Assembly (NCBI RefSeq): GCF_001685415.1
Contig: NZ_CP014989.1
Location: forward strand, 3,038,001-3,102,000
Direction of reading: 5' to 3'
Length of the DNA: 64,000 nt
Source of the DNA: Serinicoccus hydrothermalis
GTDB lineage: Bacteria > Actinomycetota > Actinomycetes > Actinomycetales > Dermatophilaceae
Positions 22,331-63,592 of the stretch are shown piece after piece. The notes under the pieces were generated by a model, which was given only the letters and a program-made list of their open reading frames with translations, ran no database searches and had not been told where the DNA came from. The position numbers and the translations under genes are program-made. Within the stretch, counting starts at the first letter, position 1, and each line of letters starts with the position of its first letter.

Positions 22331-22402
22331 GAGTGCGGTCACCTTCGAGCAACCTCCATCACCCTGTAGGGCGATGGAGGTTGCAGGAAGGTGACCGCAC
22401 TC
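22331..22402. terminator. Two-tier hairpin after the nuo/polyprenyl operon
   Basis: Outer arms GAGTGCGGTCACCTT (22331-22345) and its exact complement (22388-22402), 15 bp. Inside them is a second stem CAACCTCCATC (22350-22360) / GATGGAGGTTG (22373-22383), 11 bp, capped by CCCT/AGGG. No T-run follows. It probably terminates the plus-strand operon, but the nested form resembles other intergenic palindromes in this window. Confidence 0.55.
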
Positions 22403-37050: not shown

Positions 37051-37135
37051 GGACCCAGCCTCGCAGGCCCGCCCCCCGTCCTCGACATCGCTGCCCCGAC
37101 ACCCGCCCTCCCGCCTGCCCGTCCCCCTCTGCCCG

Positions 37136-37185
37136 AATTCGACCTCTGGAATCGTCGCCATGGCGACGTTTCGAGAGGTCGAAAT
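37136..37185. repeat. TCGCCATGGCGA-core palindromic repeat, copy 1
   Basis: Arms ATTCGACCTCT (37137-37147) and AGAGGTCGAAAT (37174-37185) differ by one base in length. They enclose a perfect 16-bp palindrome CGTCGCCATGGCGACG at 37153-37168. It lies in the divergent gap between the phosphatase and the fructosamine-kinase-like gene. Confidence 0.7.
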
Positions 37186-37207
37186 CCGGCGGGCTCGGTC
37201 GCTGCCC

Positions 37208-37258
37208 GTTTTCGACATCTGGTGTGTTAGCCATGGCGACGTTTTCAGTCGTCGAATT
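37208..37258. repeat. TCGCCATGGCGA-core palindromic repeat, copy 2 (degenerate)
   Basis: The layout is the same as copy 1: TTTTCGACATCTGG, then GCCATGGCGACG with GCCATGGC at 37229-37236, then GTCGTCGAATTCC. The left half is degraded (GTGTGTTAGCC), so the hairpin is weaker. It begins 23 bases after copy 1 ends and ends about 59 bases before the kinase-like start. Confidence 0.6.
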
Positions 37259-37316
37259 CCGGCAGGGGCTGCGAGGGTGGGGCGATGCCGGGACGAGCGC
37301 GACCGATGAGCGAGGT

Positions 37317-50688: not shown

Positions 50689-50710
50689 ACCCCCATCCTG
50701 CCCGCACCCT

Positions 50711-50829
50711 GGTCGACTGGCCGCACGCTTTGTGTCGACCGGCCGCGCGCTTTGGTCCGACTGGCCGCGCACCTTCCGTCCTGCACAGCAAATCGTGCGG
50801 CCGGTGCGCGCAAACCGTGCGGCCGGTCC
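50711..50829. repeat. Five-unit direct/inverted repeat array before nuoH2
   Basis: Three direct units of about 20 bases (50711-50732 GTCGACTGGCCGCACGCTTT; 50734-50754; 50757-50774), about 23 bases apart, are followed by two inverted units (50788-50805, 50809-50829 CGCAAACCGTGCGGCCGG). The two sets are complementary and could fold into alternative hairpins. It lies between the divergent starts of the acetyltransferase and nuoH2. Confidence 0.65.
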
Positions 50830-50899
50830 GGGGTTCCGGTGCGGTTCCCCCGGGGCGTCGGAGCCGGTCGTGCCGCCGTCAGTCGTTAGGGTGGCTGCG

Positions 50900-59450: not shown

Positions 59451-59463
59451 CCGAGGCCGCCGG

Positions 59464-59533
59464 ACCTGAACACGGATATGGGGGCGGAGCGTAGGAAATA
59501 ACCTGCGCCCTGGCCCCATGTCCGTGTTCAGGT
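59464..59533. terminator. Long palindrome between convergent htpX and folP
   Basis: Arms ACCTGAACACGGATATGGGG (59464-59483) and CCCCATGTCCGTGTTCAGGT (59514-59533), 20 bp with a single mismatch. The inner part GCGTAGG-AAATAA-CCTGCGC can form a second short stem. Likely bidirectional terminator or palindromic repeat. Confidence 0.55.
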
Positions 59534-59592
59534 CCCGGAAGCGTGCTCAGGTCCGGCAAGCGTGCTCAGGCGCCGGAACCGTGCACAGGCTC
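59521..59592. repeat. Four short tandem GTGCTCAGG units
   Basis: Units of about 19-20 bases run head to tail: GTGTTCAGGTCCCGGAA, GCGTGCTCAGGTCCGGCAA, GCGTGCTCAGGCGCCGGAAC and CGTGCACAGGCTCAGG. The first unit is the right arm of the neighbouring palindrome, so that arm appears to have been amplified. The array ends at the folP stop. Confidence 0.55.
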
Positions 59593-63456: not shown

Positions 63457-63515
63457 GCGGCCACCGCCACCGGCCACCGCCGGCTCTGGCTGGCTGGAAC
63501 CACCGACCACCGCCG

Positions 63516-63567
63516 GAATTCGACCTTGGGTTTCATCGCCATGGCGACGAAACCCAAGGTCGAATTC
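63516..63567. repeat. TCGCCATGGCGA-core palindromic repeat, copy 3
   Basis: A 52-base palindrome with one mismatch: arms GAATTCGACCTTGGGTTTC (63516-63534) and its complement (63549-63567) around ATCGCCATGGCGAC. It shares the AATTCGACCT and GCCATGGCGAC parts with copies 1 and 2 at 37136-37258. It lies between the convergent yajQ and MFS genes. Confidence 0.75.
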
Positions 63568-63592
63568 GGGGATGGGCGACCCGGCGGGGCGG

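Follow-up and report, generated by a model that had tools for sequence, protein, structure and literature searches.

An AbiEi-like gene bracketed by palindromes, and the dispersed palindromic elements of Serinicoccus hydrothermalis that are its candidate cognate sites

Introduction

Three long palindromes that share a common set of short sequence boxes lie within the window analysed here (the whole 64,000-nucleotide stretch G000:C1:3038001-3102000 of the complete, 3,597,394-bp genome of Serinicoccus hydrothermalis, ‘G000’), and raise the question of what is being kept in them: a structure, formed by the pairing of two arms, or a sequence, read by a protein. A first-pass annotation of this DNA had argued for the former, taking compensating changes between the arms to mean that structure and not sequence is kept, and had suggested that the palindromes might be REP/MITE-like elements, for which a RAYT-type transposase should be sought, or else protein-binding sites.

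Results

The elements of the window

Both the pair of palindromes at 37 kb and the single copy at 63.5 kb are present as originally described; a spaced consensus matches six half-sites in the window, where 0.06 would be expected.

37132..37189, no strand assigned: palindromic element copy 1 (46-bp core 37138-37183; G000:C1:3075132-3075189; R1 score 77-78 bits); boxes TTCGAC 37138-37143, GCCATGGC 37157-37164 and GTCGAA 37178-37183, separated by two 13-nt spacers
37205..37262, no strand assigned: palindromic element copy 2 (core 37211-37256), 73 bp downstream of copy 1; boxes TTCGAC 37211-37216, GCCATGGC 37230-37237 and GTCGAA 37251-37256; poor arm match
63513..63570, no strand assigned: palindromic element copy 3 (core 63519-63564), near-perfect; boxes TTCGAC 63519-63524, GCCATGGC 63538-63545 and GTCGAA 63559-63564

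The arms are 87% complementary in copy 1, match at about half of their positions in copy 2, and are 93% complementary over 29 nt in copy 3. Copies 1 and 2 sit in a divergent gap, between an LMW phosphatase gene on the minus strand and a fructosamine kinase gene on the plus strand, bearing out the earlier remark that some copies occupy such gaps; the gap that holds copy 3 is convergent. At the orthologous place in Serinicoccus kebangsaanensis (‘G047’) we see a pair of elements with the identical 73-bp spacing (G047:C37:40916/40989), and the ortholog of copy 3 (G047:C37:69008) is also perfect, with a parallel change in both arms. A related genome, G081, has a short intergenic region without the 37-kb pair, and lacks copy 3, a different hairpin being found at that place.

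Other repeats are also visible in the window: GC-rich CCGGCCGCAC/GTGCGGCCGG units in direct and inverted order (50705-50830), with units of this kind having many matches in S. kebangsaanensis and also adjoining several palindromes; another long palindrome (22331-22402; 35-nt arms, 91%), with a partial second copy near L006:540-590; and a 74-bp palindrome in a convergent gap (59462-59535), not seen again in the G000 stretches compared. At the gathering threshold Rfam reports only a tRNA in the window, its other matches being at chance level.

Design, copy number and constraint

The element is symmetrical, 46 bp in length, and built to the plan TTCGAC-N13-GCCATGGC-N13-GTCGAA, with a weaker preference in the outer flanks for approximately CTGCC[CG]GA[AT]. 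Searching G000 with an open gap (TTCGAC-N{3,30}-GCCATGGC) returns 48 forward and 47 reverse half-sites, in all 95 of which the spacer is exactly 13 bases, free of indels; the reversed control of this search gives no matches. The arm, from TTCGAC to the dyad, measures exactly 23 nt. The three copies of the window are not the whole family, as had at first been conceivable: about 50 copies are dispersed through the 3.6-Mb genome. Neighbouring elements are often exactly 73 bp apart, in both G000 and G047, the intervening sequence differing; the shared spacing might be read as helical phasing, but other pairs are spaced by 66, 95 and 113 bp. Two further candidates were set aside: the spacers, read as codons, contain in-frame TGA stops in several copies (by eye) and are therefore not coding, and a DNA uptake sequence is ruled out, half-sites never occurring singly.

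A search of 84,980 species found both-strand matches, outside the home genome, only in S. kebangsaanensis, and across 120 genomes of the family the element is numerous only in this species and G000. Within the genus (32 genomes) a covariance model puts the number of elements at about 50 in G000 and 51 in G047, roughly 20 in G126, four in G122 and two each in G133 and G147, with none or marginal matches elsewhere. Of the 47 G000 copies open to this comparison, about 35 have a counterpart at the same place in G047; the other 12 were not found. In 30 orthologous pairs from these two genomes the boxes differ at 2 of 600 sites (0.3%) and the spacers at 222 of 780 (28%); neighbouring genes, by comparison, have diverged by 28% at third codon positions and 38% at fourfold sites. 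Copies were recognised with up to four box mismatches, yet nearly all have none or one and decayed copies are almost absent, from which it follows that the boxes are kept; it is the sequence boxes that are conserved in these elements.

The edges of the elements have no consistent excess of direct repeats of the kind left by target-site duplication, and among the empty sites none is clean enough to prove transposition, the alignments being too diverged for sharp boundaries. A different palindrome family, GGGATAGCACAACCT..AGGTTGTGCTATCCC, is found in S. kebangsaanensis (L229:530-600 and L227 near 5783), one copy of which occupies the place of G000 element 1097051.

A partner gene bracketed by the elements

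The RAYT-type transposase that the first-pass annotation proposed to look for is missing: no Y1_Tnp/RAYT protein (PF01797) was found in G000 by a search that detected its positive controls, and a different protein family takes that place. The gene in question (G000:C1:2128148-2129098, outside the window) lies between elements at 2127919/2127992 and 2129163. The same gene is found between elements in G000, G047, G122 and G147—the two element copies of G147 flanking this one gene—with a frameshifted copy in G126; its dN/dS between G000 and G047 is 0.21. Its neighbours vary (Mnh antiporter and LacI; arginine deiminase; DsbA), and the gene therefore occupies different places in different species.

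The proteins match AbiEi models over approximately residues 17-197, with AbiEi similarity (PADLOC) in 29 of 30 homologues (best 6.6e-14) and a match to Pfam AbiEi_4 in 12. Towards the C-terminus, D243, E254 and G257 are present in all 30, and H260 in 29 (numbering after L089:2302-3249, 316 aa). This part matches the PvuRts1I/AbaSI nuclease region weakly (E 0.18), and 15 of the 30 homologues have weak similarity to a methyl-directed restriction enzyme model; taken together, the motif residues and the sub-threshold similarity suggest a C-terminus that is PD-(D/E)XK nuclease-like. A single-sequence structure model of the protein was of poor quality, and a fold search made with it uninformative.

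Homologues of the gene are found in 26 of 32 genus genomes, one to five in each, with palindromes on both sides that share one box within a locus and change box from locus to locus (GTCCCGTGGGA, TTCTGGACATAGG, GGGCACGTG, CGGTCCTGC and GACGACCG among them). In a blind test for bracketing, which required one k-mer and its complement to recur, equally far apart, in the two flanks, 7-mers bracket 15 of 30 loci against 5 of 1500 random intervals, and 6-mers 19 of 30 against 20 of 1500 (random rates 0.3-1.3%; p about 1e-29); combining the left flank of one locus with the right flank of another gives 2.8% for 7-mers and 5.9% for 6-mers. At 11 of the 30 loci there is no shared 6-mer box pair.

The box sequences follow the clades of the protein tree. 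At one locus with conserved neighbours (L347/L349 comparison), G000, G081, G137 and G145 carry GTCCCGTGG cassettes, just one flank of the G081 gene yielding a palindrome at the threshold used; in G047 the same locus holds a gene from a different protein clade, flanked on each side by TTCTGGACAT palindromes. The scaffold MT837139, of human-faecal origin, encodes a homologue of 47% identity between CGGTGATGCA palindromes, and bracketing is therefore not confined to the genus; searches of plasmids and IMG/VR contigs found no homologues. Away from the gene, other box families are nearly absent in the three genomes sampled (G123, G146 and G137; 200 kb each), indicating that dispersal is not general; a second dispersed box family occurs once in 341 kb of G000 and three times in 421 kb of G047, one of the latter flanking its gene. 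In G133 a typical TTCGAC palindrome (L256; G133:C1:640344) is present, and the partner gene of this genome has a different box at its flanks; this copy may be a relic or a transfer.

Rival readings: binding alone, RNA hairpins or a dead family

The main rival to a system that spreads is DNA binding alone, in which an AbiEi-like repressor would act on its own gene and on a regulon of targets, neither cutting nor spreading anything; such an operator with its further sites could explain both the elements and the bracketing. The binding sites of AbiEi proteins are 23-bp inverted repeats in pairs, 3-4 bp apart, through which these proteins autoregulate (PMC7319586); the arm length here is identical, at 23, and palindromes do lie near the gene start. 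However, palindromes are found at both ends of the gene, the adjacent genes scanned at five loci (MnhE/G, LacI, DsbA, HTH and arginine deiminase) include no AbiEii-like toxin gene, and the dispersed copies, rare in divergent promoter gaps, favour convergent 3′ ends: 24 of 40 G000 loci are in convergent gaps, against 24 of 166 background gaps (p 1.6e-8; gaps of at least 60 bp, genes called with our own simple codon-usage gene caller). We consider binding alone unlikely.

The same convergent-gap excess, with elements often no more than 50 bp from stop codons, would also suit RNA hairpins (bidirectional terminators or 3′-end stabilisers) kept for their structure, as would the hairpin that replaces copy 3 in G081, the covariation of the whole element set, which exceeds that of shuffles, and some orthologous near-perfect copies in which the two arms have changed together (555061, 3101519 and 3597198). 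Against this, the agreement between the two spacers of a copy has a bimodal distribution: in 30 of 100 copies at least 11 of the 13 positions match, a level that about 9% of random arm pairs reach, and in the remaining 70% or so the arms match as well as shuffled ones or slightly less well. Mismatched positions are mostly C/G, A/T or G/T differences, forming no wobble pair on either strand. Moreover, a hairpin does not need invariant box sequences; the spacers are held at exactly 13 bases, there is no U-tract after the stem, and copies in divergent gaps exist. RNA hairpins are, we think, distinctly improbable. The compensating arms described at the outset are thus genuine in about 30% of copies and give way to chance-level pairing in the rest; the wider contention that structure is kept in place of sequence is on the whole not supported, the boxes being retained and the non-perfect copies pairing at chance, even if the set taken together covaries more than shuffled copies do. 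What this family keeps is not its hairpin structure.

The arm data fit, rather, two independent inverted half-sites with occasional homogenisation of the arms, by template switching or by replacement of the whole element. As to the near-perfect arms themselves, we judge the odds to be even that their identity derives from template switching, or from replacement by another family copy, and not from selection on pairing; an account compatible with the reading we prefer. The bimodal matching and the multi-base parallel changes in orthologs point this way, as does G126, in which most copies carry two different arm types, and template switching (quasipalindrome correction) is a documented mechanism (PMC8794818), though whole-element gene conversion would give the same pattern.

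Finally, a dead MITE/REP family with no present function, to which the neighbouring gene is incidental, would account for dispersed copies, for the 12 of 47 not found in G047 and for the few copies in most relatives, but is very improbable with boxes almost unchanged at 38% fourfold divergence, hardly any decayed copies and homologues bracketed in many genomes.

Discussion

We put at roughly two in three the probability that the palindromes are cognate sites of the bracketed AbiEi-like, nuclease-like gene, amplified in a REP-like manner in this lineage. Each element would consist of two 23-nt half-sites in inverted order (TTCGAC-N13-GCCA), read by a dedicated protein that is AbiEi-like, with a winged helix, at the N-terminus and PD-(D/E)XK nuclease-like at the C-terminus; one monomer would bind each arm through contacts with the boxes, and for this reason spacing would be fixed, boxes invariant and spacers free. 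The gene and its flanking palindromes would act as a matched ‘cassette’, with related cassettes bearing other boxes across the genus, and the palindromes would have multiplied to about 50 copies in the common ancestor of G000 and S. kebangsaanensis, much as REPs do with RAYTs, the C-terminal domain perhaps nicking or cutting the sites and so spreading them. Copies, fixed spacing, box conservation, bracketing and the co-variation of box and protein are all directly observed; from these we infer binding by the protein, with cutting or nicking of the sites, as the cause of their spread and of the upkeep of the boxes.

More tentatively, and at a little under even odds, the system could represent a new class of selfish or domesticated element: an AbiEi-like PD-(D/E)XK nuclease gene bracketed by its own paired 23-nt palindromes, box specificity and protein co-evolving in many lineages beyond the genus, with non-autonomous copies amplified in some genomes. 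Most genomes of the genus hold one to five members of this AbiEi-like, nuclease-like family, which has no assigned function; the cognate palindrome at both gene ends provides a candidate substrate for each member and, if our reading is true, a naturally occurring set of matched protein-site pairs in which DNA specificity could be studied.

Several known systems invite comparison. The operators of AbiE type IV toxin-antitoxin systems (AbiEi, Rv2827c) share with ours an AbiEi-like N-terminus and paired 23-bp inverted repeats (PMC7319586), but here the C-terminus is nuclease-like, the palindromes are at both gene ends and dispersed, and the genes scanned include no adjacent toxin. DUF559/Vsr-like and PvuRts1I-AbaSI nucleases have the same invariant D and E-x-x-G..H towards the C-terminus and give a weak profile match, whereas here the similarity is sub-threshold and the region is fused to an AbiEi-like domain. 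No dependence on modified bases is known for the partner protein. With homing endonuclease genes and MITEs our system has in common a possible nuclease gene that brings its own recognition site, and non-autonomous copies elsewhere; here, by contrast, intact palindromes lie on both sides in place of a split target, and no target-site duplication was found. In the open-access literature we found no paper linking AbiEi-like nucleases to palindromic repeats, and this gene-plus-repeat system is apparently undescribed so far.

The last comparison is with REPs. Those tagged with CGTC are also palindromes without a dedicated RAYT, near convergent 3′ ends (PMC3733652), though smaller, tagged at one end and with no known partner protein, where ours has a bracketed gene. 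REP/REPIN sequences and their RAYTs (IS200/IS605-like Y1) resemble our system in their short, dispersed, often paired intergenic palindromes, in the bias towards convergent gaps (PMC3733652) and in a protein gene that lies between palindromes of the same kind (compare PMC3733652). REPs, however, are imperfect palindromes of 20-40 bp, tagged on one side by GTAG or CGTC; here the flank columns contain neither tag, the element is a symmetrical 46 bp with two fixed boxes, and the partner is AbiEi-like and PD-(D/E)XK-like in place of a Y1 transposase. The original suggestion of REP/MITE-like elements or protein-binding sites is supported in substance (dispersed copies, conserved boxes, an associated DNA-binding, nuclease-like gene). 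The element works like REP/RAYT but is not a member; if our reading is true, it is an independent protein answer, alongside RAYTs, to the same problem of how palindromes are spread and kept up.
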